Below, in pieces: positions 1 to 21,331 of a stretch of 21,331 nt of DNA. The stretch comes from a virus, in the IMG/VR virus record IMGVR_UViG_3300043409_001911, positions 1-21,331 of that record; one strand, written 5' to 3'. The notes below the pieces were generated by a model, which made no database searches, was not told the origin of the DNA, and saw only the letters and a list, made by a program, of their open reading frames with translations. How positions within the stretch are numbered: position 1 is the stretch's first letter; the number at the start of each line of letters is the position of its first letter. The position numbers were made by a program, and so were the translations under genes.

Positions 1-5
1 ATACG

Positions 6-239
6 GTGCAGGTGACGGTCGAATACGCAACGGGTCAGGTCCACGCCCTCGACCTCCTACCGGACAAAGTGTCTCGGCACACTATGATCTCGGTGTTCAC
101 GAATGGTGCCCAGATGTCACGACTATTCAGCACGTCTGAACTCCAAGCGGTATGTGCGCAGCTAGGCCTACCGCGCCCAAAAACAAAAGCGTTGGCGGTG
201 GCCGCCATCCTAAAACTGACAGGTAACCCAAGCACATGA
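6..239 (+). CDS. Small protein with SAP-like C-terminal helices
   Basis: This is a 77-residue protein of unknown function. The frame is open to the window edge, so GTG at 6 may not be the true start and the gene may be 5'-truncated. The C-terminal half (about residues 42-71) has the spacing of a SAP-type helix-extension-helix motif: a Ser-Glu-Leu helix start, a Cys, then a Leu-Gly-Leu turn, then Lys and a second Ala/Leu-rich helix. SAP motifs usually bind nucleic acid, but here the match is by eye only. The stop TGA overlaps the next gene's ATG (ATGA), so the two are probably translationally coupled. The N-terminal half is not recognised. Confidence 0.6.
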   Translation: MQVTVEYATGQVHALDLLPDKVSRHTMISVFTNGAQMSRLFSTSELQAVCAQLGLPRPKTKALAVAAILKLTGNPST

Positions 240-565
240 ACCAGTGGTTTGAAAAAGTCGCGGCTCTTATTTTCTTGCTCCTTCTCGTCGGGCTCGTTGG
301 TTTTTTGACCTTCGTCCCGCTTCCGCCCGCGTCCGAGAAAGCAGTGCTTATGATTATCGGCGGCCTGATGGCCCTCTGCACACAGGCGCTCCCGAAGCTT
401 TTTGGCAACAACAAAGAGGCCGAACTCGATAAGCGGGTCAGCGATCTCACGATTAAATACAATTGCCTGCAGGATACCCACGACCGTCTAATGGAGCTAC
501 TCGTCACGCGCCATATTATAGAACAACAAGGAGTCGTGGCTCGGAAAGAGCCGGGGCGGGTGTGA
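236..565 (+). CDS. Small two-helix membrane protein, holin candidate
   Basis: This 109-residue protein has two strongly hydrophobic segments, at about residues 8-29 (Leu/Val/Phe-rich) and 36-53 (Met/Ile/Gly-rich), joined by a short proline-containing turn. A charged, probably helical or coiled-coil tail follows (about residues 58-95). Two transmembrane helices plus a soluble charged tail is a common build for phage holins and other small inner-membrane phage proteins. No endolysin or spanin lies beside it here, so the holin role is only an inference. The start overlaps the previous stop (ATGA), and its stop overlaps the next gene's GTG start. It could equally be an uncharacterised accessory membrane protein. 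Confidence 0.7.
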   Translation: MNQWFEKVAALIFLLLLVGLVGFLTFVPLPPASEKAVLMIIGGLMALCTQALPKLFGNNKEAELDKRVSDLTIKYNCLQDTHDRLMELLVTRHIIEQQGVVARKEPGRV

Positions 566-861
566 ACAAAAAGCCGACCACGGCGGACTCCCGGCTGAAA
601 CGCGCGGGGGTCTCGGGGTTCAACACCCCAAAGAGGACGCCGGGCCACCCGACGAAATCGCACGTGGTGGTGGCCAAAGTCGGCACGCAGATCAAGACAA
701 TCAGGTTCGGGGAGCAAGGGGCGAAAACCGCAGGTGCTCCGAAAGCGGGAGAGTCGGACGCCATGAAAGCCAAGCGAGCTTCATTCAAAGCGCGCCACGC
801 TAAGAACATCTCGAAAGGGAAAATGTCTGCAGCATACTGGGCGGACAAAGCAAAATGGTAG
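562..861 (+). CDS. Small basic phage protein, DUF6321-like
   Basis: This 99-residue, very basic protein has a conserved-looking core around KSHVVVAK and IKTIRFGEQG, and a C-terminal block containing SFKARHAKNI and AAYWADKAKW. This combination matches a family found widely in short-tailed phages, which I believe is annotated as DUF6321; no function is established. I chose GTG at 562 rather than the in-frame ATG at 463. The family-like sequence begins right after it (VNKKPTTADSRLKRAG), it overlaps the upstream stop as GTGA, and the extra N-terminus would run entirely inside the previous gene. The position just ahead of the scaffold and capsid genes suggests a packaging, assembly or DNA-associated role, but that is inference. 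Confidence 0.8.
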   Translation: MNKKPTTADSRLKRAGVSGFNTPKRTPGHPTKSHVVVAKVGTQIKTIRFGEQGAKTAGAPKAGESDAMKAKRASFKARHAKNISKGKMSAAYWADKAKW

Positions 862-925
862 TCGCCCTCCACCGTCCGCAACAAACTTGTGGACACACCG
901 CAAACAAATGTAGTATGTGCGGGCA

Positions 926-1111
926 ATGAACAACTTAACCCGCCAAGAAATAACCAAAGCTTTTGAGCGCGTAGAGCACCGTGCGATAGCCGGACTGACC
1001 CGCGCTGAGAACCTTGAGCAGGTGAAACTTATGCAAGGTTCCCTGAGAGCTTGCGACGAGTTACGGAAAGAATTTGGCTTAGAGCCAAGATCATCGGAGG
1101 CAATTAAATGA
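926..1111 (+). CDS. Small helical protein of unknown function
   Basis: This 61-residue protein (start at ATG 926) looks entirely alpha-helical and charged, with heptad-like Leu/Ala spacing through residues 8-50. An in-frame GTG at 917 would add three residues. Neither start has a good ribosome site; the sequence before 926 is only weakly G-rich. Its stop overlaps the scaffold-like gene's start (ATGA at 1108), so it is probably co-translated with the capsid assembly genes. No family is recognised. Confidence 0.65.
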   Translation: MNNLTRQEITKAFERVEHRAIAGLTRAENLEQVKLMQGSLRACDELRKEFGLEPRSSEAIK

Positions 1112-2103
1112 CAAACACCAACCCAAGCGCAGCGCTAGACACCACACCCCAACCCAGCGCGGCTGATCCTATCGACGTTGTGGCACAGACCAGCACTCTC
1201 AACGACGACGACCTTATCCGATATATTGAGAGCTTGTCGCCGCCAAAACCGCAGACTCAAGAGTCACCAGTGGACAACGTAATCCCGTTTGCTGCGCCGA
1301 CACCTGCGCCCCAAGCTCCAGCTCTTGGCGAAGGCGGGTTCGACTCTTTGTTCGCTCCGCCCGCGCCGGTTCCACAACCCGCACCGACCTTCACCCCCGA
1401 GATGATGCAGTCGACCATCGACACAGCAGTGAGTAAGGCGCTGGCAGAGTTCGCGGCCAAGCCCGCCGCACCGCTGGCCTCACAGTTCTTATCTCCAGCG
1501 GACATGGGCTTGACCCCTGCGGAGTCCGAAGCTTTCGGAGACTCGATCCCGGTCATCCGTAAAGTAGCCGAAGCCGCCGCCGCCGCCGCTCGCAGTGAAG
1601 CCAACGCGGAAATCAGCGCGCTGAAAAACCGCGTGGAACAAATGGAGTCTTCCGTAAACTCTCGCATGACTGAAACCATCGGGGCCGCCTACCAGCAGCA
1701 GCTCGCTTCGGCGGTGCCAGACCTTAACCAACTCGTCTCAACGCCAGAGTTCAAAGCGTTCATCAGCGACACCGTTCCTATGACTGGTGAGCGGATTTCG
1801 TCGGTGCTTTCGGCGGCGCACGCCAACCGGGACTTGCCGAAGATAACTCGTATCATGGCGGAGTTCCGCAGCAAGCTCGGGCAAAGCCCGCTCGATGGGC
1901 TTGTCCAGCCTTCGGGTGTGGCGGCGTCCCCCAAACTGTCTACCCCAATGGCTGCACCTGCACCAAAAACGCTCCCTTGGACAAACCGGCTGAAAGCCGC
2001 CAAACTCTTCGACGCAGGAAAGATAACCAAAGCGCAGTTCGACGCGGTGGACGCAGAGTATAATGCGGCGGACCTTCAAGGAAGGATCGACTTCTCGGCG
2101 TAG
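1108..2103 (+). CDS. Probable capsid assembly scaffold protein
   Basis: This 331-residue protein lies immediately upstream of the major capsid gene, the usual place for a phage scaffold. About residues 1-110 are rich in Pro, Ala, Thr and Asp and look disordered, with an acidic stretch (LNDDDLIRYIESL near residue 31). Residues about 110-225 are Ala/Glu/Lys/Arg-rich and probably helical or coiled, and the tail about 270-331 is basic (WTNRLKAAKLFDAGKITK) followed by acidic residues. Scaffolds of T7-like phages share this disordered-then-coiled pattern with a charged C-terminus that contacts the coat protein. There is no cysteine. No serine-protease motif was seen, so a protease-scaffold fusion is not supported. 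The call rests on position and composition, not on a clear sequence match. Confidence 0.75.
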   Translation: MTNTNPSAALDTTPQPSAADPIDVVAQTSTLNDDDLIRYIESLSPPKPQTQESPVDNVIPFAAPTPAPQAPALGEGGFDSLFAPPAPVPQPAPTFTPEMMQSTIDTAVSKALAEFAAKPAAPLASQFLSPADMGLTPAESEAFGDSIPVIRKVAEAAAAAARSEANAEISALKNRVEQMESSVNSRMTETIGAAYQQQLASAVPDLNQLVSTPEFKAFISDTVPMTGERISSVLSAAHANRDLPKITRIMAEFRSKLGQSPLDGLVQPSGVAASPKLSTPMAAPAPKTLPWTNRLKAAKLFDAGKITKAQFDAVDAEYNAADLQGRIDFSA

Positions 2104-2179
2104 CGCCGGGAGTCGGTAAGAGTGCAGCACCCACGAGTATGAGAACAAAAACATTTTAACGCACACGGAAGGTAAACAG

Positions 2180-3142
2180 ATGTCACGAGTAAACACAGGC
2201 GGGATACCCGCAGCCGCAGGATACCCGCAATATTCGGGCTACCTAACATCTCCGGTAACCTCGAACAAAATCATCGAGCTGTATAAGTGCGGCTCGATCT
2301 ACCAAGAAATTGCCACGACCGAATATCTTGGCGAAATCCAAGGCAAAGGCGACCAAGTTCAATTCTTCCGCCAGCCAGAAGTAATTATCCGCGACCATAT
2401 CAAAGATGGCCGCATCAAGCACGACACGCTTGAGGCAAAGCAAATCACCTTGTCGATCGACGAGGCGAATGAGTTCAGCTTTAAGATGGCAATGGTCGAC
2501 GAAAGCCAGATGGAAAACTGGCCGATGTTCCGCGAAGCCATGATGAACAGCGCGGTTCGCACTATGGCACAGCGCCAAGACACCCGCATCCTTGGGTCGA
2601 TCTATGCCGACGCAGCCCCAGCCAATCGCGGCGCGAATGCCGGACTTGAGTCCAACTGTTACAACTTAGGCACGCCTGGGGCTCCGGCCATCATCACGAA
2701 AGACAACGTGCTCGACACTTTGATCGCGCTCGGCGCGGTTCTGGACGAACAGTGCATCCCTGCGGATAGCCGCTGGATTGTTGTGCCGCCGAAGTTTAAG
2801 CAGCTTCTGCTTTCTTCGCCTATCCTCTCGGTCGCGCAGTCAAGTGGACTCCAAGAGTCCACCATGTTGAATGGACGCCTGCCGCAAATGATCGGCGGGT
2901 TTAACATCTATGTGTCCAACAACCTCACTCGCGTCACCGACCCTGTGACAAACCTGCCAACCTACAACATCATCGCGGGATATAAGGGCGCTTTCGTCTA
3001 CGCTAACCATTTGGCGCAGACCCGTCAGACTGATGATGCACACACGTGGGACCACTACTATCAAGGCTTGATGGTTTGGGGCTTCGGCACAATTCAACCG
3101 ACTGGCCTCGTCCACTTGTATGCGAGTATGCCCGGTAATTGA
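2180..3142 (+). CDS. Major capsid protein (HK97-fold type expected)
   Basis: This 320-residue protein has the hallmarks of a podovirus coat protein. It starts near 'TSNKIIELYKCGSIYQEIAT'. A helical segment is followed by DTRILGSIYADAAPANRGAN (about residues 134-153), and then by LGAVLDEQCIPADSRWIVVP (about residues 184-203). This 'asymmetric DTR...N.G', then 'LDE..IP...RWIV.PP' pattern recurs in capsid proteins of many tailed phages. The C-terminal part has alternating beta-like stretches ending in a Gly-rich loop. Position directly after the scaffold and before a terminator agrees with the most highly expressed gene of the particle. A GGAAGG site sits about eight bases before the ATG. No delta-domain cleavage motif was seen. 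Confidence 0.87.
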   Translation: MSRVNTGGIPAAAGYPQYSGYLTSPVTSNKIIELYKCGSIYQEIATTEYLGEIQGKGDQVQFFRQPEVIIRDHIKDGRIKHDTLEAKQITLSIDEANEFSFKMAMVDESQMENWPMFREAMMNSAVRTMAQRQDTRILGSIYADAAPANRGANAGLESNCYNLGTPGAPAIITKDNVLDTLIALGAVLDEQCIPADSRWIVVPPKFKQLLLSSPILSVAQSSGLQESTMLNGRLPQMIGGFNIYVSNNLTRVTDPVTNLPTYNIIAGYKGAFVYANHLAQTRQTDDAHTWDHYYQGLMVWGFGTIQPTGLVHLYASMPGN

Positions 3143-3182
3143 TGGGCGCGCCGGAACAACGCTAAGATAAAAGGATACTATA

Positions 3183-3752
3183 ATGGCAACACATAAGCTT
3201 TTCCAAGGTGGACTCCGGGGTCGCACGGGTTTCCCGACCACTTTGTTTCCATCAACCGACGTAGAGCCAGATCAATATTTCCAGCCGGACCACCGGCAAG
3301 GGGATATTGTGACTTCGCAAAACCGGCGGTTTGTTTTCAAAGACTCCGACGTCCGCGTCGGTTTCAGCACTGACTTCTCTGACGGGCTATCCGAGTATGT
3401 CGACTGTCTCGAAGCGCCATTCGCGGCGGGCGATATTATCGAGGCTGTGATCCTGCCGCGCCACACTTCGGTGGACCGCATTTGGGTTAACGTCGAGCTG
3501 CCAGCCGCAGGGCTTCTGTTCGACATCACATTGCGGGGCAACTCGGCTTCGTCTGGCGGACCAGCGGTTTTGGCTGCGGGCATCGACGGGAGCGTGGTTG
3601 GGTCGCAGCTTATCGTTCTGCCTGACCATATCTACTTTGACCAGAACGACATGCTCCAGCTTGTCTTGACTACGGTTGACCACGCAGCTCTGCTGTGCGG
3701 TAACTTCACAGTGTCGCCGGTAATCACTGAGTATTGCCGAGGCGTAAACTAA
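3183..3752 (+). CDS. Probable capsid decoration or minor head protein
   Basis: This 189-residue protein has no family that I recognise. The first 60 residues are polar and Gly/Arg/Asp-rich. The rest alternates hydrophobic stretches with Gly/Asn/Ser turns (VILPRHTSVDRIWVNVELPA, then an AGIDGSVVGSQLIVLPDHIY stretch), which suggests a beta-sandwich. It is preceded by AAGGA eight bases before the ATG, and it is the last gene before the strong terminator at 3764-3796, so it is likely made at levels comparable to the coat protein. That setting, together with the small beta-rich build, points to a head decoration or cement protein, or a head fibre base. An alternative is a head-completion protein. 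Confidence 0.7.
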   Translation: MATHKLFQGGLRGRTGFPTTLFPSTDVEPDQYFQPDHRQGDIVTSQNRRFVFKDSDVRVGFSTDFSDGLSEYVDCLEAPFAAGDIIEAVILPRHTSVDRIWVNVELPAAGLLFDITLRGNSASSGGPAVLAAGIDGSVVGSQLIVLPDHIYFDQNDMLQLVLTTVDHAALLCGNFTVSPVITEYCRGVN

Positions 3753-3763
3753 CCCACCCACTT

Positions 3764-3796
3764 ACACGAGGGGGCCACACCCCCTCGTGTCTTTTT
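3764..3796 (+). terminator. Intrinsic terminator after capsid genes
   Basis: A perfect 11-bp stem (ACACGAGGGGG at 3764-3774 pairing with CCCCCTCGTGT at 3780-3790) closes a five-base loop (CCACA), followed by C and five T at 3792-3796. This is a textbook Rho-independent terminator. It starts 11 bases after the stop of the 3183-3752 gene and precedes the next ribosome site by only a few bases, so it separates high-level capsid transcription from the connector and tail genes. Confidence 0.93.
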
Positions 3797-3802
3797 AATT
3801 TT

Positions 3803-3807
3803 GGAGG
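3803..3807 (+). promoter_or_regulatory. Shine-Dalgarno site deciding the 3813 start
   Basis: GGAGG sits five bases before ATG 3813. An in-frame TTG at 3801 lies before and over this site, so ATG 3813 is the supported start. The sequence follows directly on the T-tract of the capsid terminator. Confidence 0.85.
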
Positions 3808-3812
3808 AAAGC

Positions 3813-4202
3813 ATGACTACCATCAAACTCTTACAAGCCGAAGACGGCGCGGTTTTTGCATTCGACGCAAAGTTGTATGAAAGCCGCGCAAACCTTAGTC
3901 TCATCGAGGTGGATATTGATCCCGTTGCCGCACTTGCGCACACCAACACACTACTCGCGAATGCAGGGATAGCCGCTCAGCGGCCCGTCGCGCCGCTGGA
4001 CACTCTTCGCCGCCTAGCCCCGCCCCCTGTCGTCGAGACAGCGAAACCTGTCAAGGCTGAGGCTCCATCACCCGCGCCTGACGACTCCGCGAGTCCGCCA
4101 AAAACCGATGAGTCCACACAAGTGCTGCCACCTTCGGGCCTCGTGGATGCTCCATCTTCGGAGCCTACCACGGTCTCGGCGGCTTCTATTTTCGGCGACT
4201 GA
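3813..4202 (+). CDS. Proline-rich small protein, unknown function
   Basis: This 129-residue protein has two parts. Residues 1-58 look folded (TIKLLQAEDGAVFAFDAKLY is beta-hairpin-like, then a DPVAALAHTNTLL helix). Residues about 59-129 are Pro/Ala/Ser/Glu-rich and probably disordered, ending in SAASIFGD. It is the first gene after the capsid terminator and stops just ahead of the adaptor gene (next ATG at 4204). Small proteins with a short N-terminal domain and a Pro-rich tail are common between the head and connector genes of podoviruses, but I recognise no family. A role as a head-assembly partner is only a guess from position. Confidence 0.7.
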   Translation: MTTIKLLQAEDGAVFAFDAKLYESRANLSLIEVDIDPVAALAHTNTLLANAGIAAQRPVAPLDTLRRLAPPPVVETAKPVKAEAPSPAPDDSASPPKTDESTQVLPPSGLVDAPSSEPTTVSAASIFGD

Positions 4203-4203
4203 T

Positions 4204-4977
4204 ATGGCGTCTTGCCGACCCCTCCTCCGTGACCTTATCCGACGCGCGCGTTATATTTTGGCGGACACGGTTTCCACAGGAGAGGGGTCGGCAGTCACGG
4301 ACCATGAAGGGTCGTGGTCCGACACGGCAATCGTCGACTATATAAACGAGGGGATCGGCCTCCTGCAATCTCTGCGGCCCGACGCCTTCATAAAACTTAT
4401 CAACCTCCGCCTGACTCCCGGTGTGAAACAAGTCGCTCCCGAGGGCATCGACCGGATAGCCGAGGTGCTCAATGCAACCGACGCCGACGGCAACATCATC
4501 GGGGACATCCAGCGGCGCAGCGACACCGCGCTATCACGACTTCCAGCGAACGTGGGTTGCTCCGGCAATCCTGACGTGACAGACACCTGCACAAACGCAG
4601 AGGCATATGTTGCGACATCCGCAACAATAAACGACTTTGACCCTCGGAGCTTCGACATTTACCCGCCGCCGCCGCGAAACGCGGACTCCTACGTCTGCGT
4701 TCGAGCGGTCATGGACCCCCCGTGCTTTTGCGCGAACCGGCCCGGAGAAGAGTTCGACATCCCGGTTAAGTTCCACGCGGCCATTATAGATTGGGTCATC
4801 CACCGGGCCTACCTGCGGGACATCGAGAGCACCTACGCAATCGCGCAGTCGACCAACGCTTTCAACCGGTTCTACACCATCATCTCAAACGGCCAGACTG
4901 GCGAGTCCAAGTTTGGCTCTGGGTATTTCTTAGGTGCCGAGGGCAGCGGAGACCCGCAAGCAAAAGCCCGCGCATAG
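4204..4977 (+). CDS. Head-tail adaptor-like protein, DUF6682 type
   Basis: This 257-residue protein matches the pattern of the phage adaptor family annotated DUF6682: an N-terminal helical pair (DLIRRARYILADTVS, then a Trp-Ser-Asp followed by IVDYINEGIGLLQSLRPDAF), a central strand region with FDPRSFDIYPPPP (about residues 150-163), and a C-terminal helical block (FDIPVKFHAAIIDWVIHRAY). In podoviruses this protein bridges portal and nozzle. ATG 4204 is chosen because the family-like sequence starts there; the frame is open further upstream but lies inside the preceding gene. It carries a Cys-rich insert (PPCFCAN and a DTC motif) that I do not associate with the family. It is followed by a second connector gene nine bases downstream. 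Confidence 0.8.
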   Translation: MASCRPLLRDLIRRARYILADTVSTGEGSAVTDHEGSWSDTAIVDYINEGIGLLQSLRPDAFIKLINLRLTPGVKQVAPEGIDRIAEVLNATDADGNIIGDIQRRSDTALSRLPANVGCSGNPDVTDTCTNAEAYVATSATINDFDPRSFDIYPPPPRNADSYVCVRAVMDPPCFCANRPGEEFDIPVKFHAAIIDWVIHRAYLRDIESTYAIAQSTNAFNRFYTIISNGQTGESKFGSGYFLGAEGSGDPQAKARA

Positions 4978-4986
4978 GAGCCGACA

Positions 4987-5619
4987 ATGACGTGCAGCAG
5001 TAATCCTATCGACACTGTCCCGTGGTCGGCGTTCGCTCCAGCGGTGCTTCTGCACTGCCCGACCGCGCCGTTGAACGTCATTGAGCACGCCGTGCGGGAG
5101 ACCGTCATTGAGTGGGCCGAGCGGTCTATGTCACTGGTGCGTGACATCTTTATCGACGCCCAAGAAAATGTGCGGGACTATGAAGTGGTGGCCGAAGACG
5201 GCTACAATATCCACACATTCAACAACGTGTCCTACCACGACCGCAACTTGCGCGCCGCCGGGTTCTCCATGCACCACGATCTCTGCTACGGCTACTACGC
5301 CTTCAGAATACCTTCGGCGCTGTTGCTTGGCGAGACGCCCGACTGCGACGAAGCGCGGGCCATCTATGTTTCTGCGGTGGTCAAACCCTCGCAGGTTTCG
5401 TGCAGTGTTGACCGCTGGGTGTTCGAGCGACACGCCGAGGCCATATCGACTGGGGCTATATCCCGCATGGCGCTTATAGCCAATCAGGACTGGACATCTG
5501 TGCAGACTGCGGGTATCATGCTGCGTAGGTGGGAAGCGTTCCTTGGCCGCATAAAAAGCGAAGTCTCTAAGAACTACTCCACCGCGCCTAGCTTTATGCG
5601 AGCGAGGCGGTTTATCTAA
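4987..5619 (+). CDS. Second connector or tail-adaptor protein
   Basis: This 210-residue protein resembles the second small connector gene that follows DUF6682-type adaptors in many podophages. The N-terminus runs from an aromatic/Pro segment (DTVPWSAFAPAVLLHCPTAP) into a helix ending in EWAERSMSL. A beta-rich middle follows. The C-terminus begins at HAEAISTGAISRMALIANQ, continues with a Trp, and ends in a helix and a basic tail (SEVSKNYSTAPSFMRARRFI), a recurrent ending in this group. The role is inferred as part of the head-tail junction. AGGAG precedes the ATG by six bases, and the preceding gene ends nine bases upstream. It has five cysteines. The stop is followed by the 179-base leader region. 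Confidence 0.7.
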   Translation: MTCSSNPIDTVPWSAFAPAVLLHCPTAPLNVIEHAVRETVIEWAERSMSLVRDIFIDAQENVRDYEVVAEDGYNIHTFNNVSYHDRNLRAAGFSMHHDLCYGYYAFRIPSALLLGETPDCDEARAIYVSAVVKPSQVSCSVDRWVFERHAEAISTGAISRMALIANQDWTSVQTAGIMLRRWEAFLGRIKSEVSKNYSTAPSFMRARRFI

Positions 5620-5623
5620 GACC

Positions 5624-5713
5624 CCAAATAAAAGGTCACCAACCTATGACACGCACCTAACCGAAGCACTAAAGAACACCAAATAAAAGGTCGCGGTGTT
5701 CCAAGGCACCTAA
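5624..5713 (+). repeat. Two-copy imperfect direct repeat in leader
   Basis: Both copies begin with the identical 14-mer CCAAATAAAAGGTC (5624-5637 and 5679-5692) and end with the identical 8-mer GCACCTAA (5653-5660 and 5706-5713). The middle differs (15 versus 13 bases). The first copy is flanked by GACC/GGTC, a short dyad. The second copy lies inside the 7-bp hairpin. Duplicated flanks with a variable centre look like paired binding sites or a duplicated leader, not chance. Confidence 0.8.
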
Positions 5714-5760
5714 TGGAAACGATCGCGGTCACTATAGGCAGTGGACGACAGGGCGCATAA
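5713..5760 (+). CDS. Possible 15-codon leader peptide
   Basis: ATG 5713 opens a 15-codon frame (METIAVTIGSGRQGA) with AAGG at 5703-5706, six bases ahead. It overlaps the promoter-like string. The codon choice looks like coding sequence, so it may be a leader peptide or a remnant of a lost gene. A chance frame is equally possible. Confidence 0.2.
   Translation: METIAVTIGSGRQGA
5729..5743 (+). promoter_or_regulatory. T7-class phage promoter-like sequence
   Basis: The bases TCACTATAGG at 5729-5738 are identical to positions -8 to +2 of the T7 class III promoter, and AG follows after one base as in GGGAG. The expected start would be G5737, about 60 bases before the tail gene at 5799. The upstream recognition half (T7 -17 to -9) does not match, which is expected if a divergent single-subunit RNA polymerase is used. 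No polymerase gene lies in this window, and only this one intergenic copy was found. The match also contains a small CACT/AGTG dyad. Confidence 0.35.
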
Positions 5761-5798
5761 GTGGTAAAGGGGCGTCAGGCCAGCCTACGGGAGCAAAT

Positions 5799-6797
5799 AT
5801 GTCTGACACCTCTGACCAGTTCGTCGCCCCCGGCGACACCTACGAGCAGCGCTACGGTCGAGGACGTCGGGCGCTGCAACGGGTCAACTTAAGAGGGTCG
5901 GCGTTTAACGGTGACCTATATATCACCGACGGTTTCTCGGACTCCAGCCAAGCACGGAACCCGGCCAACGACTTTAGGCCTGAGCTGTTCGCGCCGCAAG
6001 AGTTCGTGGACCCAAGATCACGGCAGCCGGGTCTCTTCGGCAGTTATGGGGTGCAGTATCTCGACGACCACTACCCACTGCACCACATCAACAACACAAA
6101 GCTAGTCAAAACGCCCGACCTGAAATCTGTTGTGGTTAGCGCGAGACAGTGTGGCTGCTCGGTCCTGACTCTGGAGTCGGCCCCGACCCTTTTGATACGG
6201 CGGCGAGGGCAGGAACAAGCCTGCCTGCGATACCTGCCGTTTGAGATCACTGGCTCCGGGAGCGAAGCGCACTACCTGTTTGACAGAAAGCTAGACGCCT
6301 TGACCCCCGGCAGGTATGAGATGATGTTTGTTATCGGGGGCACACCCCACATAACGGACCCCGCCTGCGGCACCCTTTGTGTGGTCGCGGAACTGACTGT
6401 CCCCAACCGATGCAATATCGGCGGGGTAGCGGCGGTCACCGCCCAAGAAATAGCAGCCCCCTCAAGGCCAGAAGGAATTGAAGACGTGTTCGACGGATTA
6501 GAATTTTTCAACGCACAACTCTGCGGGGTTTTGGAAAGCGACGCAGTTGTCCTGCCTTTGTCCGCAGAAGACACCGCGTCTTTGTGTGCGGGTATCCGCT
6601 GCCACCCTGTGCAGCTACGGATCACCGACGGAACAAAGAGCGAGGTCATCGAGATCACCGAGTGCGTAGCGGGGCAGCCTGTGGTGGTTAGGGGCGCGAC
6701 AAACATGCAGCCGCGCCGGTTCCCTCGTGGCTCGCGAGTCCGGTTCGAGTGGACCGCCGCCAACGTCCGCAACGCCTGTGAACCCTGCCCAATCTGA
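5799..6797 (+). CDS. Cysteine-rich tail appendage protein 1
   Basis: This 332-residue protein has no family match that I can name overall. Residues 1-105 are polar, with Arg/Tyr/His-rich turns. The middle is beta-like. Residues about 275-324 form a module (ITDGTKSEVIEITECVAG, then VVVRGATNMQ and RFPRGSRVRFEW) common in phage tail and fibre-base proteins, where a short strand pair is followed by 'RG...' and 'W/FP.GS.VRF'. A related module opens the next protein. Twelve cysteines are present (for example RQCGCS and NACEPCPI). GGGAG precedes the ATG by five bases. The location between connectors and nozzle supports a tail knob or fibre-base role. Confidence 0.65.
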   Translation: MSDTSDQFVAPGDTYEQRYGRGRRALQRVNLRGSAFNGDLYITDGFSDSSQARNPANDFRPELFAPQEFVDPRSRQPGLFGSYGVQYLDDHYPLHHINNTKLVKTPDLKSVVVSARQCGCSVLTLESAPTLLIRRRGQEQACLRYLPFEITGSGSEAHYLFDRKLDALTPGRYEMMFVIGGTPHITDPACGTLCVVAELTVPNRCNIGGVAAVTAQEIAAPSRPEGIEDVFDGLEFFNAQLCGVLESDAVVLPLSAEDTASLCAGIRCHPVQLRITDGTKSEVIEITECVAGQPVVVRGATNMQPRRFPRGSRVRFEWTAANVRNACEPCPI

Positions 6798-6805
6798 GAG
6801 ACGCT

Positions 6806-7849: not shown

Positions 7850-7850
7850 G

Positions 7851-9563: not shown

Positions 9564-9567
9564 CGTC

Positions 9568-12709: not shown

Positions 12710-12711
12710 CC

Positions 12712-13113
12712 ATGCCTGACACCAAAACAACTGGCCTGTCCGCCAAAGAGTCCGCCGAGAGCACACTAAAACCCCGCGACCTGTTGGCCGAGCTCCTCGA
12801 CACTCATAGCGTTTCGCCGTTCGAGCTTGACGCACGGGATTTTTTTGACCGGGATCAAGACTCGCGGAGTCTTGAGCAGAACGAACAGGCAGGTGCCGCA
12901 CCGCAGGTGCCGCCGCTCTACCCCGATCAGCCCGACTCCTTATCGGCGGCGCTGCCATCAAACCCCAGACTAAAACCAGACGCCCTTGCAGAGGCTCTCG
13001 GCCCGTCTATCGAAAATATATCTCGGTTCGGTGAACCCGGCCCCGGATCATTCGCGGACATGTCAGAGAGTGAGATGCGGGCAATACTGCGCAAAGTCTT
13101 GAAGAAACTTTAG
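12712..13113 (+). CDS. Small acidic protein between internal virion genes
   Basis: This 133-residue protein begins two bases after the previous stop and ends nine bases before the giant gene. It is mostly polar and Pro/Ser/Asp-rich, with a short helix (LKPRDLLAELLDTH) and a C-terminal helix (MSESEMRAILRKVLKKL). No cysteine and no recognised family. A perfect 9-bp inverted repeat lies within its coding sequence (12855-12875). It may be a small assembly partner or linker for the neighbouring internal proteins, but there is no direct evidence for that. Confidence 0.65.
   Translation: MPDTKTTGLSAKESAESTLKPRDLLAELLDTHSVSPFELDARDFFDRDQDSRSLEQNEQAGAAPQVPPLYPDQPDSLSAALPSNPRLKPDALAEALGPSIENISRFGEPGPGSFADMSESEMRAILRKVLKKL
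12855..12875. repeat. Perfect 9-bp inverted repeat, 3-base centre
   Basis: Left arm TCAAGACTC (12855-12863) and right arm GAGTCTTGA (12867-12875) pair exactly around GCG. Each arm ends in a GASTC site (GACTC, GAGTC). The dyad lies inside a coding frame and has no T-tract, so it is not a terminator. It could be an RNA hairpin or a protein-binding dyad. Confidence 0.75.
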
Positions 13114-13122
13114 GAACTCACC

Positions 13123-16100
13123 ATGGATGAAGTAAACCGGTTGCAGTCTATTTTCGGCGGCGGGGGATCGTCGGCGCTCGACCAGCTAACGCGGTCTCAG
13201 GAGTCGGCTCGCCGCCAAAGAGAGCAGGAGCAGAACGAAGCAGAGCGTGAGGCCCGCCGCGCTCAGAGCGACGCTTTGCGTGAGACCCGTCTCGAACGGT
13301 CCGAAACTAACTTCGCGCGGCGTGAAGCTTCTTATGAGCGCGCGGAACTGCGGCGCGAACAAGCCGAGGCCAAGCTCCGTAAAAAGAGTTCGCAAGGGGT
13401 CGACTTAGAAATATCCGCTGCGGAATATCTAGCGGCCAAAGGCCACAGCCCAGAGCGGTTCGCCCGCAGCAGCAAAGAAGACCGGCTAAAACTGCTTGGG
13501 GCTTTCTATGCCGACACTCTCCGCCCGCAAGTAAACCGCATAGCGGCAGAGCGAGGATACACCGCGAAGCAGAAGGTTTCGTTCGAGCAGAACCTGCGCA
13601 CGGGTGCGTTCGCTGACCTTGCGCGCTCACACAGCTACGACTCCTACGTCCCATCGACAGCCTACATAGACGCATGGCAGCGCCGCGCGGCAAACCGTGC
13701 CGCGACAGCGAGTGTGGCACCCGCGAAGAGTAAAGGGTTCTTGAGCGAGGCTCAAGGCGTGGTCAGGCAGGCCGGGGCGGCCCTCGCCGAAGGCGCAGCG
13801 GGAACCGCTGCGTTTGTAAGGTCAGCGATTAACCAGATAGAAACCGAGCTGGACCCGAGGTCTGTCCAAGCGGCTCGCCGCGAAAACACTCTGCGGAATA
13901 AAGCCAACCGCGACTTCAGCGAAGGCCGCTTGACTGCGGAGCAGCTCCGTCAAGAAAGGTCGGACTCGCGGAGTCGCCTCAAGAGAACTTCGGCGCGAGT
14001 CGCGCCTTCGAAGGACGATAGTGTCTTAGATGGCTTCATCGCTTACGCAAAGCGAGAGGCTGACTTCGGGTTCAGCGAAGCTACGAAAGACAGCACCGAC
14101 GCAAAAGATTTCCAGACTCGGACGCGCAGCGCCAAGACCATTAGCGACACCGTGTCGGCCTACGCAGAGAACCCTGTCATCGCGGCGGCTTCGCTGTTCG
14201 GGTCGGTCGCAGGTTCGGGGGGTGCCGTCGGCGCGGGGCGCGTGGCCGCACTAAAAGGCGCGGGACTTATAGCAAACACCGCCGGTAAGTTCGGCGCGGT
14301 GAGGACCGCCGCGCAAATTAAACAGGGAGTCGCCGCCACCAGCAAAGCTTTCTCCGCGTCACGTGCTGCCGTAGTGGGCAACGCTGCGGGCGTTGGCGGC
14401 AGTGTCGAGCTGCAAGCCCGCGATGAACTAAACGCACTATCCGACGAACAGTTTCGCCTACTGCCTGCCTACCGCACCGCCGCCGAAGAGCTTGGCGATC
14501 TGCCGCCTGCGCTGATCCGAGACTATACCACCCGCGCGCTTGTCACGATAGGCCGCGACGTAGGCGCTGCGACCGCAGTGGTCGGGTCGTTGATCGGGGC
14601 GGGGACCGAGAGTCTTTTTTCCGGCGCGGTTAAGGCTGCGCTCCAAGGGGCAGGAGGCAACGTCACGCGGGCAGTCGCTCGCGAAGCAGCATCCGAAGCC
14701 GTCGAAGGTGCTGGCGAGTCCGCTGCGCTCGATCTAGGCCGGGGACGTGCTGTCGATCTGGAGCGCGCCGCAGGTGCTGCGGTTACTGGCGCGCTGCTCG
14801 GCGGTGTTGTCGGCGGCGGCCTTGCTGGCGCGAACCGCTTAGGTGGTGTAGGTGGTGCAGGTGGTAGCCCGCTCCGTAACCCACTCCGCCGCGCGTCCGC
14901 CAATCCTGCTCCCGTGACGGCTCAGGAGTCTGGTCCACCGAACACTCCGAGCGGCGGCAACCCGCTGGACCCTAGTTCGCCAGCATCACCTGCGCCTCGC
15001 CCGCTCCCACCATCGGACGGCGGCCCCTTGGCCGCACCGGACCCCGACGCTCCGGCCATATCGGCGCTGCTGGGAGACGTAGATGTCCAGCGGGCTCTTA
15101 ACTCCCCCGAGCTGGTCAACGCAGAGCTAATCGCTGCGACAGAAAACTTCAAGGCAATCCTCAACGAAACCGCCGGTAAAGACCAGCGGGATATCGACCA
15201 CAGCATTGAGTTCGCAGACCGCCTTTCGACACGAGCAGCCGGGGGCTTCGCCTCGACGGACCCCCTTAGCCTCGCGGCGGTCTCGCAGGAGGCGCTCCTT
15301 GCGGGCCTAGCGTCTCAGGACTCCGAAGTCACAGCCTCGATCCGCGAGCAGTCAGAAGCAGCGGTCTTTGGTGAAGACGGGCGGGTTGACTTTAGTGCAC
15401 CGCGCGACCTCGACCATATCGCTGCGGTTGCGCAGTCGCGCGCCGGCGAAACCCGGCGGCTGAAGTCAGGCAACACATCGACAGCGTTCGCGCGCGAAGG
15501 TAGCGTCACTCCTGAAGCGAGAGCTATAGCGCAGCAGTCACTGCTTATCGACAGCGGGGTTCCCGCCGAAGCCGCCGCTGAGTTGACCACTCTCGTGTCG
15601 GGGCTGGGCCGTGTCGGGCTGCGGCAGGCTTTAGAAGTGACCATCGAAGATAGCCTAGGGACGCCGCTTAGCGTCGCGGCGCGGACGCTCCGGGCCTTAG
15701 AGCGAGAAGCTTTGGCGGTGCAGCGCGCGGCCAACGGCCTCGCTAAAGTAGTCTCTCTCGCTGGTAAGCCCGGCGCTAAAGCTGAAGATATTCTCGCGGC
15801 ACTTGAGAGCGCGTCCTCGGCGGCTGAAGGGCTAGGGGCAAGGTTCAAATCAAGCGATGAGGGTTTGTTGGCTTTGGCCGCAGGTGCTCCAGCAGGACTC
15901 GGCGAGTCGATTGTCCAACGCGGTGGCGGTGGCGGTGGCGGCGGCGGCCTTCGGCCCCGCAGACCTAACAACCCCCTCGACCAACTCGCCGTGGCCCCAG
16001 TGCCGGGACTTATCCTCCAAGCTTCGTCTCGAACGGGGTCGCTGCCGGTAGACGCGGCGCGTAAAGTCGCAGCGAAACTCACCTCATGGTTCACAAACTA

Positions 16101-19100
16101 CGACTCGATGAACCAGTTTAAGCGGGCATCAAACGCAGCGTTGAATTTCAGCGGGCGACCCGTAGACATCCACGGGTCTTTCAGAAATGCGGCGCTCCGG
16201 GTGCGGGAAGCGCGCACGGCGGTGACCCAGCGATACGTGGAGCCGTTAAGGGTCGCCCTCGACGAAGCCTCGGCGGTGTCGGGCCTGCCGCTTGAGCAGA
16301 TCAACCGCGACTATGGGTTGTGGCGGGCGCTCACCCATGCGGAAGAACGCATTCGGTGGAACTTTGTCAACCGGACCAACGTGTTGAGTGTCGCCGCGCT
16401 GAAAGATTTTCAGACCTTGCAGGGCCGTCTAAAAGACCAGAACCTTTCGCCCCGAGGATACCGCGCCGGGTTGGAAGCTCTGTTCGCCGACGCCCAGAGC
16501 TACCGCAAAGAGTTTCAGACTCCTGAGCACACGGACCTCAGCACACAATTCGTCAGGTTCACGAACCCAGTCACCGGCCTTGACGACAGCCTGCTTATAG
16601 CGGACATCCCTGTGCAGTTGGAAGCCTTAAACCAACTCCCTTACATCGAGCAGTTTGAGACCGCACGCGAAATCGAGCGGGAAGGCTACGCCCGCGTGCG
16701 GGAAGCCCAAGCCAAAGGTAATATCGGAGGCCAGTTCAACCGCGACATTCTCGCGGCGGCAGACTTCAAAGACTACCTACCCCTGCGGGCGGACAGGTCC
16801 GGTGACGTGTTAGACACGGAGCAATCCCGCGACGACTTGAACTTCCGAAACAGTGGGCTGAAGAGGTCGATGGAAGCAGACCTTGGCTCGGGAGTCCGAG
16901 ACCCCGGCGACTCGCTTATGTTCGCGCTTCACCGGGCAGTGAAGCAGTCCGAAGAAAACGTCGCGTTTCAGCAGATGGTGCAGGTCGCCGAGACCCTAAC
17001 CCGTGCTGGCGGCGGCAACATCGGCGTGGTGACCAACGCCTTGCCCCTCACTGCGGAGACACGCGACGGCAGGCCGACGGGAAGGCTTTCAAACGCCAAC
17101 CTCGCTAAGGTGACTGACGAAGACATGTTCATGGCTCGGTATCCTGACGGGTCCATAAAAGTTTTGAGGGTCACCGACCCTCAAGTCCTCGATGTTCTGA
17201 CGACCCAGCACGCAGAAGAGGAAATGCCCGGCGCGTTCCGGGCGGTAGCGCGGTCGGTAACTCGTGGCTTTTCCCGGCTTCAGGTGCTGCACCCAAGGTA
17301 TATCATAGGCACCGCACTACCCCGCGACGCTATCGAGGCTATGCTGGTGGCCACAGGTGGGGCGCGCGGCCCCGGCCTCGACAACATCAAGACCCAAATT
17401 CGAAACCACGCAGAGCGTATTAAAGACAGCCGTCGCGTGTTTGAGTTTTACCGCGCCACGTCTGGCGAACGCGAAAAGCTCGCGGTTAAGTGGGCCGACG
17501 ATCCCGCGATGAAGTATACGTTGGAACGCTACCGCGAAATGGGGGTCATCTCTTTCACCGATCAGTTGGGCGGCGACGCCCAACTACTCCGGTCGGACTC
17601 CGCAGCGCAACGGAACCAAAAGCCGGTCGGTTTAGCCCGTGGGAAAAGGCTCATCAGCGACGGCTTCGCAGCGATAGGCCACGCCTCGGACCAAACATTA
17701 GGCGCTCTCTCTACGACGCTTGATAGTATTGGGCGCGACGCAGCCTACGCAACACTGCGGGAGTCCGGCGTCGGAGTGGAAGCAGCCACCAACTTGGTTC
17801 GCAATATATATGATCCAAGCCACCGGACCCGTTTCCCCGGAGTCCGCGCCGGCGCAGACTGGGTGCCGTTCCTAAACAGCGCCTTCGCAGGGCAGCACGC
17901 TTTTCTGGCGCGCCGTATCTGGAAGAACGGTGTGGCCCCGACTCGCGAGACGCGGGTCTCCGCCGACGGCGTGACCAACACCGAGCAGCAGATTGACTGG
18001 GGCCGCGCATGGGATGAGCTGAACTATCCTGCGGCAGCAGTATCGCTGGGACTTTCTACGCTTTCGACGGGCGCGATGTATGCCGTTGGGGCGGCTTTGA
18101 TGAGCGACGACGAAGACCGGCACCCGTTGTCGGACGTTCCGGCGGTGCAGCTTATGACTTCTCGCGGCGTTCCACTGGGCAGCGACAACGCAGGCAACCT
18201 CGCGGTCCTCAAAGTCCCTTCGCAGTATGGTCTAGACATGATGCTGCACGCTTTGGGCACAGGCACTGCGCTTGTCGCTTCGGGCACTCACTCCGTCGGT
18301 GAAGTTGCTACAGCGTTCGCCGACATCACTGCGCAGAACCTGATCCCGTTGGGCAAGTTCAACGCCGAGGCTTTCACGGATGCGTGGGGGGCGGTTGCCT
18401 TATCTGGTGGGGGCGTAGACGCGGACGATCTCTCTTCGTCCGGCGCAGGGTCGGCGGTGCAAGAAGCGGGCCGTGCTTTCATGTCGAGCATTTTAGGGGC
18501 CAACCCGTTGGGGGCGGCTATTGGGCAACCTATCTTAGACCGGACCCCCCAAGGGCGCACCATCAACAACCGCAACCCTGAAGACCCCGCGAGGATCGGC
18601 ACTACTGCGGCGGCGGTCCAGATGTCCGAAGCCATCGACAATGCTGTGACTGCGGAGTCCATACAGCATGTGGCGGTGTCTTTGGGCGGCGCTTACGCCA
18701 GAGACTTTGTGATGATCGCCAACACTGCTCGGAGGTTTGCGGAAGACCCAGACTACGCGGGCGGAGAGCATGAGATTTTTGACCACCCCGCTACAAACTT
18801 TCTCACACAGGTGAGAGTCGCGGGTCGCAACGGGCTGAAGCGCGAAGCCGACCACATCATAGGCACGGTGTTCGCCCCGAAAGCGGCGGCGTATAATGCC
18901 CTAAAGCGGACGGACTTTGACAACCGTGACACCTCGGCGTGGTGGAAATCAAATGGGCCGCTGGCCTCGAAATACCTCGACGACAACCCAGACTTCTCGG
19001 AGTTCGTCGGGATCATGGAAGATTACCAGTCCGCCCGCCGCAAGGCTATGGCTGTTATTCAAGAGGAAAGACATAACATCTATTCCGGGGGCAACAAGCC

Positions 19101-19194
19101 CGCCGACCATCAACTTATCCACGAAGCGCATAGGGAAATTGATAAGGTCGACGAGCAGTTTATCGTGGACAGTGCCAAGTTCACTCCGAAGTAG
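13123..19194 (+). CDS. Giant internal virion (ejection) protein, polyvalent type
   Basis: This 2,023-residue protein has a charged N-terminal coiled coil (about 20-95) and helical, partly hydrophobic Gly/Ala stretches near 348-385, 460-500 and 540-575. A Pro-rich linker follows (about 595-646), then a middle helical part, a polyglycine run (about 934-943), and a large C-terminal part. The C-terminal part resembles the large polyvalent phage proteins: 'LWRALTHAEERIRWNF' (about 1066-1081), 'KDYLPLRAD' near 1217, 'VLHPRYIIGTALPRDAIEA' (about 1388-1406) and 'WVPFLNSAFAGQHAFL' (about 1579-1594), comparable to the LPD38-type region. A hydrophobic helix lies near 1633-1660. It has no cysteine. It is probably ejected with DNA into the host, as is T7 gp16. 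Its 3' end overlaps the opposing gene by 14 bases. Confidence 0.85.
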   Translation: MDEVNRLQSIFGGGGSSALDQLTRSQESARRQREQEQNEAEREARRAQSDALRETRLERSETNFARREASYERAELRREQAEAKLRKKSSQGVDLEISAAEYLAAKGHSPERFARSSKEDRLKLLGAFYADTLRPQVNRIAAERGYTAKQKVSFEQNLRTGAFADLARSHSYDSYVPSTAYIDAWQRRAANRAATASVAPAKSKGFLSEAQGVVRQAGAALAEGAAGTAAFVRSAINQIETELDPRSVQAARRENTLRNKANRDFSEGRLTAEQLRQERSDSRSRLKRTSARVAPSKDDSVLDGFIAYAKREADFGFSEATKDSTDAKDFQTRTRSAKTISDTVSAYAENPVIAAASLFGSVAGSGGAVGAGRVAALKGAGLIANTAGKFGAVRTAAQIKQGVAATSKAFSASRAAVVGNAAGVGGSVELQARDELNALSDEQFRLLPAYRTAAEELGDLPPALIRDYTTRALVTIGRDVGAATAVVGSLIGAGTESLFSGAVKAALQGAGGNVTRAVAREAASEAVEGAGESAALDLGRGRAVDLERAAGAAVTGALLGGVVGGGLAGANRLGGVGGAGGSPLRNPLRRASANPAPVTAQESGPPNTPSGGNPLDPSSPASPAPRPLPPSDGGPLAAPDPDAPAISALLGDVDVQRALNSPELVNAELIAATENFKAILNETAGKDQRDIDHSIEFADRLSTRAAGGFASTDPLSLAAVSQEALLAGLASQDSEVTASIREQSEAAVFGEDGRVDFSAPRDLDHIAAVAQSRAGETRRLKSGNTSTAFAREGSVTPEARAIAQQSLLIDSGVPAEAAAELTTLVSGLGRVGLRQALEVTIEDSLGTPLSVAARTLRALEREALAVQRAANGLAKVVSLAGKPGAKAEDILAALESASSAAEGLGARFKSSDEGLLALAAGAPAGLGESIVQRGGGGGGGGGLRPRRPNNPLDQLAVAPVPGLILQASSRTGSLPVDAARKVAAKLTSWFTNYDSMNQFKRASNAALNFSGRPVDIHGSFRNAALRVREARTAVTQRYVEPLRVALDEASAVSGLPLEQINRDYGLWRALTHAEERIRWNFVNRTNVLSVAALKDFQTLQGRLKDQNLSPRGYRAGLEALFADAQSYRKEFQTPEHTDLSTQFVRFTNPVTGLDDSLLIADIPVQLEALNQLPYIEQFETAREIEREGYARVREAQAKGNIGGQFNRDILAAADFKDYLPLRADRSGDVLDTEQSRDDLNFRNSGLKRSMEADLGSGVRDPGDSLMFALHRAVKQSEENVAFQQMVQVAETLTRAGGGNIGVVTNALPLTAETRDGRPTGRLSNANLAKVTDEDMFMARYPDGSIKVLRVTDPQVLDVLTTQHAEEEMPGAFRAVARSVTRGFSRLQVLHPRYIIGTALPRDAIEAMLVATGGARGPGLDNIKTQIRNHAERIKDSRRVFEFYRATSGEREKLAVKWADDPAMKYTLERYREMGVISFTDQLGGDAQLLRSDSAAQRNQKPVGLARGKRLISDGFAAIGHASDQTLGALSTTLDSIGRDAAYATLRESGVGVEAATNLVRNIYDPSHRTRFPGVRAGADWVPFLNSAFAGQHAFLARRIWKNGVAPTRETRVSADGVTNTEQQIDWGRAWDELNYPAAAVSLGLSTLSTGAMYAVGAALMSDDEDRHPLSDVPAVQLMTSRGVPLGSDNAGNLAVLKVPSQYGLDMMLHALGTGTALVASGTHSVGEVATAFADITAQNLIPLGKFNAEAFTDAWGAVALSGGGVDADDLSSSGAGSAVQEAGRAFMSSILGANPLGAAIGQPILDRTPQGRTINNRNPEDPARIGTTAAAVQMSEAIDNAVTAESIQHVAVSLGGAYARDFVMIANTARRFAEDPDYAGGEHEIFDHPATNFLTQVRVAGRNGLKREADHIIGTVFAPKAAAYNALKRTDFDNRDTSAWWKSNGPLASKYLDDNPDFSEFVGIMEDYQSARRKAMAVIQEERHNIYSGGNKPADHQLIHEAHREIDKVDEQFIVDSAKFTPK

Positions 19195-19651
19195 GGGGGT
19201 CTTCGGCGGTCTTGACTCCGGGAGTCAGAGTTACAACGAGCCCGCCGCTGGCGGTGTCGTGGGTCTTGGCTATCTCGCAGGCTTGGTGAGGCGTGGCCCC
19301 AGCGAGCATCGCACCCAACGCGAGGTCGCCACCCGAGCCTAGCGCGGCGGGTGGGAAAAGCTCTATCTCATTATCGGTGTAGTCGTCGGACCACGAAGAG
19401 AAGTCGCCGGACCACAGACGGTCCTCGGTGTCTAGCCTTAGGTAGAAACTGTCCTGTATCTTGAACTCCCCCAAAGTGCCCTCGAAAAACGAAAGTGTCC
19501 GAGTCAGGTCGAAGGTGCTTCCTGTCACCCCCACTACGCTGCCATCGGGCAAGTTAAACCCCTTGACTATGGCGTCACTGAACACGGACCCGTGCACCGT
19601 GGCGCGAGAGTCGACGGCTAACGTTTTGCCGTCCGTTGCTATAACTGTCAT
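19181..19651 (-). CDS. HslV/proteasome-beta-like Ntn-hydrolase
   Basis: This 156-residue protein begins MTVIATDGKTLAVDSRAT, as do proteasome beta and HslV subunits. Removal of Met would expose Thr1, the nucleophile. Using that numbering, Asp13 (AVDSR) aligns with HslV Asp17 and Lys29 (IVKGFN) with Lys33. The downstream block LGSGGDLALGAMLAGATPHQ matches the GSGG turn containing the conserved Ser of the family. This supports an active Ntn peptidase or amidase of the HslV/Anbu-like class rather than a remnant. It is shorter than HslV (about 175 residues). No HslU-like ATPase is visible next to it. GAGGAG lies eight bases before the ATG. It overlaps the end of the giant virion gene by 14 bases. 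Confidence 0.82.
   Translation of the reverse strand: MTVIATDGKTLAVDSRATVHGSVFSDAIVKGFNLPDGSVVGVTGSTFDLTRTLSFFEGTLGEFKIQDSFYLRLDTEDRLWSGDFSSWSDDYTDNEIELFPPAALGSGGDLALGAMLAGATPHQACEIAKTHDTASGGLVVTLTPGVKTAEDPPTSE
19213..19227. repeat. 6-bp inverted repeat at convergent gene ends
   Basis: TGACTC (19213-19218) and GAGTCA (19222-19227) pair around CGG. It lies 18 bases beyond the giant gene's stop and within the opposing Ntn-hydrolase gene. There is no T-tract on either side, so it is a weak candidate for a transcription stop between convergent operons. It also carries a GACTC/GAGTC pair like three other dyads in the window. Confidence 0.4.
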
Positions 19652-19689
19652 TTTGTTTCTCCTCGTAAAATTAAATTAGTTTTATGGGG

Positions 19690-19872
19690 CTATGCGAACG
19701 CAAACAAGACAGACCCGGCTATACCGCACGCGATGCCGAGAGTTAAAAGCATCCTTGGCACGGGCTCGTCAGGGATGCTCCTCCCCGAAGAGGAAATTAT
19801 AACCACCCCAAAATAGGCGAGGGCGATCCCCCACACAACCAACACAACGCTGGCGACTTCTAAGCTATTCAT
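19690..19872 (-). CDS. Small two-helix membrane protein
   Basis: This 60-residue protein consists almost only of two transmembrane helices, about residues 5-27 (LEVASVVLVVWGIALAYFGV) and 40-60 (MLLTLGIACGIAGSVLFAFA), with a polar Ser/Arg/Asp/Pro loop between. GAGGAGG lies about six bases before the ATG. The start overlaps the end of the upstream gene by eight bases, so it is probably translationally coupled. It could be a holin, a superinfection-exclusion protein or a membrane partner of the neighbouring Ntn-hydrolase; nothing in the sequence decides this. Confidence 0.7.
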   Translation of the reverse strand: MNSLEVASVVLVVWGIALAYFGVVIISSSGRSIPDEPVPRMLLTLGIACGIAGSVLFAFA

Positions 19873-20047
19873 CGTCGGCCTCCTCTTCGGGTGAAAACAT
19901 ATCTCGCACGCGCTGCGCTAGGCTATACGGCACGTTATCGGTCACAAGTGTGCCTATTTTATACCCCGCTGAAAAAAGGTCGTTGCCTATTAGGTCTATC
20001 ACGTCTTCGTTTGTGTTAACCATGTTGGTTTTCTGCGGTTTACTCAT
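19865..20047 (-). CDS. Small soluble protein, unknown function
   Basis: This 60-residue protein has a basic N-terminus (MSKPQKTN), a hydrophobic middle with predicted helix (EDVIDLIGNDLFSAGYKIGT) and a strongly acidic C-terminus (FSPEEEADDE). Its ATG overlaps the stop of the DUF927-type gene (ATGA) and its end overlaps the next small gene, so it belongs to one tightly packed operon. GGAGAA about eight bases upstream, formed by the tandem repeat at 20046-20071, provides the ribosome site. No family is recognised. Confidence 0.65.
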   Translation of the reverse strand: MSKPQKTNMVNTNEDVIDLIGNDLFSAGYKIGTLVTDNVPYSLAQRVRDMFSPEEEADDE

Positions 20048-21331
20048 GTCGGTTCTCCATGTTGGTTCTCCATGTTGGTGTTGGTGTTGGTGTTGGTGGT
20101 GTGTTGCGCTACAGCATCCCGGCTGATCCTAAACGCCCGCCCATTAGGCCCAGAAACAAACCGAGGGTCTACGTCTAGGTAGGTGGTATATCGGCTGCGG
20201 TCTACTGGGAACCCATGCCGCTGCCACAGTCGGACCACAGCCGCCATATCTGAGACGTTATAGTTGTTTCGGATGAACTCCGCCAACGCACGTTCCATTA
20301 TGACTACTTCGCCCAGCCGCCCCCCGGAGTTACTGTTGGGCACGATATAACCTGCTGTCGCCCCTGCGCCGGTGTTAAGCCCTACGGTCGCCACATCCAG
20401 CATTTTATATTTGCCACTGGCGAGGAACGAGTCGATGATCTCTCGCATGTCTGACACGGACTCGGGAGCCACAGACTCTGCCCGATTAATAACGAGCGGC
20501 TTACCGAAGCTCACCGCCCCCGAGGGCGCGGGTGCAGTGGCGACGCGCGGCTCTACCCCAGTCCCATTAAACACGCTGACTAAATCATCTGCCCAATTGT
20601 CCATATCTTCTATGACTCCCAGCTTTCTAAGTATCGCCTCTACCACTCGGCAGACCGCTACTAAATCGTGCATAAACCTTTCCTGCGGGGCCGCGCCTTC
20701 GGCCTTACGGGTGGCCTCGCACATATCCTGCACCGCGCTCTTTACTTTGTCAAAGTGTGTGAGCACATAGTCTATGAACAGCGGACCCACGAGTCCGTAA
20801 TTCTCTGACATCGCGCGGGCCGCTTCAGACGCGCGGTTCGGATCGGTCGCGGCAGACCCCGACCGGAACGTCATGTTGAATATGCGAACCAGCGTAGCGG
20901 TATCTTGCGCGGACTCATCCTTCGAAGATGTAAGTTCTTCGGCGGTCAAGTTGGTGGTGACTATGAACAACCCGCGCCAGTCGTGCTTAACCTCACTGGC
21001 TTTACCGGTCGTCAGCAACCGGTCTTTGCCTGCCCCCTCTGTCCCTGTGAGCACCAGTGCTCGGAACTTTGACGCCGCGCTGGACATCGAGTCCTTGCTC
21101 ACTCCGGCCTCGTCTATGAACCCCGGAATATCTCGGCGGTAGTGCATCTCGCCTTCGAGCGCGACATTGGATGAACCCGCATTTATCCCGACACCTTCAG
21201 GGTGCCCCCAGAAAGACATCACCGCGCGGGCCATCGTGGTTTTACCCATCGCCGAGTCGCCGTTCAGCAAGACAGTCTGTCCTTGCGTCGGCGCGAACCT
21301 CATAAGGGGGGCGGCTAAGCTCAGCAACACA
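20044..21331 (-). CDS. DUF927-type replication ATPase, 5' end outside window
   Basis: This is the C-terminal 429 codons of a larger gene whose start lies beyond the window. The Walker A loop is GDSAMGKTT, followed by ARAVMSFWGHP, then a Walker-B-like IPGFIDEAG, a LTGTEGAGKDRL segment and WRGLFIVTTN (sensor-1-like Asn). This order matches the DUF927 helicase-like family, which is frequent in phage and plasmid replication genes as primase-helicase C-terminal parts. The last 17 residues are a TN-repeat tail and a duplicated segment (see repeat entries). Numbering here is local. The stop overlaps the next start. The role is probably DNA unwinding or initiation of replication. Confidence 0.78.
   Translation of the reverse strand, partial: VLLSLAAPLMRFAPTQGQTVLLNGDSAMGKTTMARAVMSFWGHPEGVGINAGSSNVALEGEMHYRRDIPGFIDEAGVSKDSMSSAASKFRALVLTGTEGAGKDRLLTTGKASEVKHDWRGLFIVTTNLTAEELTSSKDESAQDTATLVRIFNMTFRSGSAATDPNRASEAARAMSENYGLVGPLFIDYVLTHFDKVKSAVQDMCEATRKAEGAAPQERFMHDLVAVCRVVEAILRKLGVIEDMDNWADDLVSVFNGTGVEPRVATAPAPSGAVSFGKPLVINRAESVAPESVSDMREIIDSFLASGKYKMLDVATVGLNTGAGATAGYIVPNSNSGGRLGEVVIMERALAEFIRNNYNVSDMAAVVRLWQRHGFPVDRSRYTTYLDVDPRFVSGPNGRAFRISRDAVAQHTTNTNTNTNMENQHGEPT
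20046..20071 (-). repeat. 13-bp tandem duplication with start/SD motifs
   Basis: ATGTCGGTTCTCC (20046-20058) and ATGTTGGTTCTCC (20059-20071) differ at one base, and a partial third copy follows. Read on the minus strand, each unit contains ATGGAGAACC, giving ATG plus a GGAG ribosome-site-like core. One unit is in frame as part of the DUF927 C-terminus, and the other supplies the ribosome site of the next gene (ATG at 20047-20045). Confidence 0.8.
20074..20097 (-). repeat. Four-unit GTTGGT microsatellite
   Basis: Four perfect GTTGGT units on the plus strand encode Thr-Asn repeats in the minus-strand DUF927 tail. The six-base period keeps the frame, so unit gain or loss would only lengthen or shorten a low-complexity tail. 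It directly abuts the 13-bp duplication. Confidence 0.85.

Follow-up and report, generated by a model that had tools for sequence, protein, structure and literature searches.

Phages are known to lose the recognition sites of their hosts' restriction enzymes. Among orthodox Type II sites, 27.2% are under-represented in phages and 7.1% are eliminated, and phages eliminate under 0.5% of host sites of other restriction-modification types (Rusinov et al., 2018; PMC6286503). A depletion of GANTC has been described in pelagiphages (PMC9516812). Methylases specific for GAWTC (W, A or T) comprise MothHH_00029 of Moorella thermoacetica (PMC6700114) and an enzyme on the Psychrobacter plasmid pA3H9 that adjoins a predicted endonuclease (PMC10457243); they are distinct from the GANTC methylases. 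PfeI, TfiI and EcoRII are named as prototype enzymes in this set of papers as well (PMC6286503, PMC9516812, PMC6700114, PMC10457243). In the phage DNA described here, the phenomenon and every one of its elements are thus already known; new are the combination of missing words, its sharpness, and the clean exchange of W for S (G or C) at the centre of one of them.

The DNA analysed, called the window throughout, is the entire IMG/VR record IMGVR_UViG_3300043409_001911 (21,331 bases, G+C 59.4%). Its origin from a double-stranded DNA phage is indicated by genes that encode tailed-phage proteins of the capsid, adaptor and virion classes (Table 1). The window is probably a fragment of a tailed-phage genome, since end repeats are lacking and the window end truncates the last gene. 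Judged by the position of its gene, the protein of 2,023 residues may be a giant protein of the virion interior that enters the cell together with the DNA. The gene of the HslV-family peptidase lies on the opposite strand, and its end overlaps the end of this giant gene. No methyltransferase, defence-family or anti-restriction gene was found among the window proteins scanned against PHROGs, Pfam and PADLOC, a result that covers a genome fragment.

Table 1. Features of the window (positions in bases; E values are those of the profile matches).
Feature	Position	Strand	Remarks
GASTC, 80 sites	531..21331		from base 531 onward, biggest gap 1,037 bases
Major capsid protein gene	2180..3142	+	phrog_267, E 2.6e-33; marks the window as tailed phage
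Sole CCWGG (CCTGG)	2675..2679		within the major capsid gene
SU10-type adaptor (head-tail) protein	4210..4977, frame start approximate	+	PF24175, E 1.8e-14
Virion protein, phrog_511 family (internal virion protein)	7851..9563	+	E 9.3e-70
Structural protein with SLT lytic transglycosylase domain	11117..12709	+	PF01464, E 8.7e-20
2,023-residue protein	13123..19194	+	no match in PHROGs, PADLOC or PDB sequences; its two halves without match in Pfam
Small HslV-family peptidase	19181-19651	-	phrog_1040, E 3e-25
DUF927 primase/helicase-like protein	20044..21330, cut by window end	-	PF06048, E 4e-12; phrog_8841

An exact count gave GAATC 0, GATTC 0, GACTC 36 and GAGTC 44, that is, 0 GAWTC against 80 GASTC, which bears out the absence of the former and the abundance of the latter reported in the initial annotation; its figure of about 74 GASTC was right as to abundance and too low as to number. 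The codon-preserving shuffle that had been proposed there as a control was carried out by swapping synonymous codons among positions of the same amino acid with identical preceding and following bases, so that the proteins are kept, and it never came near zero: with codons pooled over all genes (n=400), 24.9 GAWTC are expected (sd 4.3, minimum 14), and under the stricter shuffle within genes (n=200), 16.4 are expected (sd 3.3, minimum 9). GASTC exceeds its shuffle expectation (80 seen vs 60.1), and the sum of both, GANTC, lies near expectation (80 seen vs 85, i.e., 24.9 + 60.1). GAWTC sites seem to have been converted to GASTC, and such a change of the central A/T to G/C would explain why GASTC is in excess while the GANTC total is about unchanged. 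None of the one-base neighbours of GAWTC is significantly depleted (z from -1.3 to +3.9), and therefore the target of avoidance is the double-stranded word GAWTC itself and no codon pair.

GAWTC is avoided in all three reading frames. As had been remarked earlier, Glu preceding a TCN Ser codon is always encoded by GAG (GAG 23, GAA 0) despite the common use of GAA, which makes up 165 of the 366 Glu codons in the window (GAG 178 and GAA 165 at all other positions, Fisher p 7e-7). The same holds for Asp before TCN (GAC 23, GAT 0; p 0.007), and GAA and GAT are both used before Ser codons of the AGY type (5 each). Gly codons and CGN Arg codons that precede ATC or TTC have C, G or T as third base in 55 cases and A in 0, and neither AAT nor ATT occurs with G preceding and C following.

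A scan with expectations from the pooled-codon shuffle covered palindromes, also degenerate ones, with a length of 4 to 6 bases; a word was regarded as eliminated if it was observed at one tenth of its expectation or less. GAWTC ranks third among the eliminated palindromes, behind GTAC (0 seen, 39.6 expected) and CCWGG (1 seen, 37.7 expected), and is joined by CCGCGG (0 seen, 21.6 expected), CGGCCG (0 seen, 17.3 expected) and GGCGCC (0 seen, 17.1 expected). Weaker cases are GCCGGC (2 seen, 15 expected), CAGCTG (0 seen, 8 expected) and RGATCY (0 seen, 9.5 expected), and on weaker evidence also CTCGAG and CCCGGG, both at zero on the two strands of the window. ATAT is found above its codon-preserving expectation (59 vs 46, z about 4). 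The short palindromes are affected and near-cognate words are spared: six palindromes are lost, whereas at the same one-tenth cut none of the 1,449 non-palindromic words tested (4-6 bases long, words containing an eliminated palindrome set aside) is eliminated. Several words that differ from CCGCGG or GGCGCC by one substitution exceed their expectation (CCGCAG, z 5.8; CCGCCG, z 6.7; GGCGGC, z 4.1), which has the look of sites destroyed through point changes. Such a signature belongs to Type II restriction enzymes, and neither to composition nor to a general dislike of palindromes.

A near-identity DNA search across phage records yielded no match to the window, and three single-protein scans of viral contigs found no relatives, whereas a capsid profile did recover some. 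By capsid, the nearest named phages are Rhizobium phage RHph_TM3_14A and HMO-2011-like phages (22-29% identity), and relatives in genomes reach a capsid identity of 38% at most. The comparison set consisted of contigs and genome loci recovered with the capsid profile, together with phages found via the capsid or another virion protein. A first comparison, which favours the window as it used words picked from it, found GAWTC eliminated in 4 of 108 testable loci (window counted in), and in two of these four, RHph_TM3_14A (L002) and L054, GASTC is eliminated as well. Locus L018 is low in both words (GAWTC 1/16, GASTC 10/17), and the window is the only one of the 108 testable loci to combine zero GAWTC with GASTC above expectation. 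In L002, L015, L054, L069, L070, L089 and L090, GAWTC and GASTC are both missing, i.e., the whole of GANTC, unlike in the window.

Ranking was based on an unbiased palindrome list, on which the window has 7 eliminated palindromes out of 62 testable, the highest number in 70 loci (window included); 38 of the 70 have no eliminated palindrome, and the most frequent loss is that of CCWGG (16 loci). None of the 70 long loci except the window has lost GTAC, and two shorter loci of the capsid lineage, L057 and L102, are also without it. L102 lies on a contig that was binned as Campylobacteraceae. The relatives that match best by capsid, L012 and L013, retain both GAWTC and GTAC. The losses are lineage-specific, which is what enzymes of the host would be expected to produce; within one capsid lineage, each relative can lack other words, and the pattern therefore fits a host-dependent pressure.

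Taken together, the window very probably represents the classical avoidance of several orthodox Type II specificities by a tailed phage, with restriction as the agent deduced from the words that are missing. The phage DNA would meet several Type II restriction enzymes on cell entry, genomes with fewer cut sites would survive entry more often, and site-destroying substitutions would be kept until 0 or 1 site remained. For GAWTC, the cheapest escape would be the change of the central A/T to G/C, which in the frame GAW TCN would be synonymous (GAA to GAG, GAT to GAC). The specificities probably include a GAWTC enzyme of the TfiI/PfeI kind, and next to it candidates recognizing GTAC (RsaI type), CCWGG (EcoRII type), CCGCGG, CGGCCG and GGCGCC, perhaps also CAGCTG and others; RsaI is the prototype enzyme for GTAC. 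Selection by restriction, as put forward in the initial annotation, agrees with the exclusive loss of palindromes of Type II form, the sharp borders and the often synonymous central swap, but a lone TfiI-like system does not account for at least six lost words. We infer that a single host or a set of hosts carried the enzymes. At least six simultaneous specificities are many for a single host, which counts against this explanation and makes it necessary to assume either more than one host or a long history.

Since the agent is deduced from the words only, there is room for another sequence-reading system, such as a defence other than restriction that senses GAWTC, or a regulatory protein that must not bind phage DNA. 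However, five unrelated Type II-like palindromes are lost to the same degree as GAWTC, for which a single common cause is simpler, so this alternative is very unlikely, and the antiphage sequence trigger suggested earlier is neither needed nor supported. Equally unlikely is a loss of the words without restriction, either because palindromes or hairpins are poorly tolerated in general or through methylation-driven mutation, with m5C being deaminated at CCWGG. In favour of such processes, CCWGG often carries m5C, and the window has low counts of most GC-rich six-base palindromes. Yet 15 of the 16 four-base palindromes escape elimination, and GGWCC (43 seen, 45 expected), GCWGC (103 seen, 100 expected) and GATC (67 seen, 67.5 expected) have normal counts. 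The deamination products of CCWGG, CTWGG/CCWAG, show no significant excess (CCAAG/CTTGG 58 seen, 52 expected; CCTAG/CTAGG 18 seen, 16 expected), and deamination is impossible at GAWTC when adenine is the methylated base.

CcrM-like GANTC methylation in an alphaproteobacterial host, as suggested for the GANTC-poor pelagiphages, is a still more improbable cause. It draws support from the depletion reported there (PMC9516812) and from relatives such as RHph_TM3_14A and L054, in which both halves of GANTC are gone, but GANTC methylation is blind to the distinction of W and S, and GASTC stands at 80 vs 60 expected, which refutes this cause for the window, in keeping with the initial annotation. A joint reduction of GAWTC and GASTC, the form that avoidance of GANTC (CcrM/HinfI) takes, is not seen in the window. 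The chance that composition, codon usage, amino-acid order or mere accident yields zero GAWTC is negligible, because the codon-blind maximal-order Markov expectation of just 11.5, which might speak for it, is itself depressed by the avoidance and was judged too low and replaced by the codon-preserving shuffles, none of whose runs fell below 14 or 9, respectively.

CRISPR spacers were searched with 20 kb of the window against sets of 5, 398 and 385 genomes, which overlap and are centred on Proteobacteria, and no spacer was found in this search, which ran without a positive control. Most matches fell into a repeat that encodes glycine (15920-15948), a stretch rich in Gly (about 10880-10920) and the SLT domain, which is conserved (about 12515). 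A further four short, isolated matches were rejected, as none sits in a repeat array. It is conceivable, if rather doubtful, that the window is a record of the combined restriction profile of one host, or of a tight host community, in which six or more Type II enzymes are active, one of them specific for GAWTC, and all are evaded purely via substitution. If this were true, the list of missing words could locate that host via its methylome. As a set, the missing words offer a fingerprint that can be used to predict the restriction enzymes of a metagenomic phage's host. The picture is that of a genome fragment, and the remaining genome could change it.

Compared with the described systems, the window shares with the phages surveyed by Rusinov et al. 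(2018; PMC6286503) the elimination of short palindromic sites (observed/expected below 0.1) from dsDNA phage DNA, with sites of other restriction-modification types unaffected. In contrast to that survey, in which the host enzymes were known or predicted, the enzymes are here candidates read from the words, and the window loses at least six words at once, one of them being the W half of GANTC alone. With the pelagiphages it has in common that an environmental tailed phage lost a word of the GANTC type; there, however, the whole of GANTC is depleted and the depletion is tied to CcrM-type methylation (PMC9516812), whereas the window is a clean natural case of evasion through substitution, with the GANTC total about unchanged and the central base swapped. 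RHph_TM3_14A and HMO-2011 likewise lack CCWGG and RGATCY, but GTAC is present in both; HMO-2011 retains GAWTC, and RHph_TM3_14A has lost it along with GASTC, unlike the window. The methylases of pA3H9 (PMC10457243) and M. thermoacetica (MothHH_00029, PMC6700114) are enzymes, while the window would carry only a presumed imprint, no such gene having been found in it; the specificity of these TfiI/PfeI-type restriction-modification systems is exactly the word that the window avoids.
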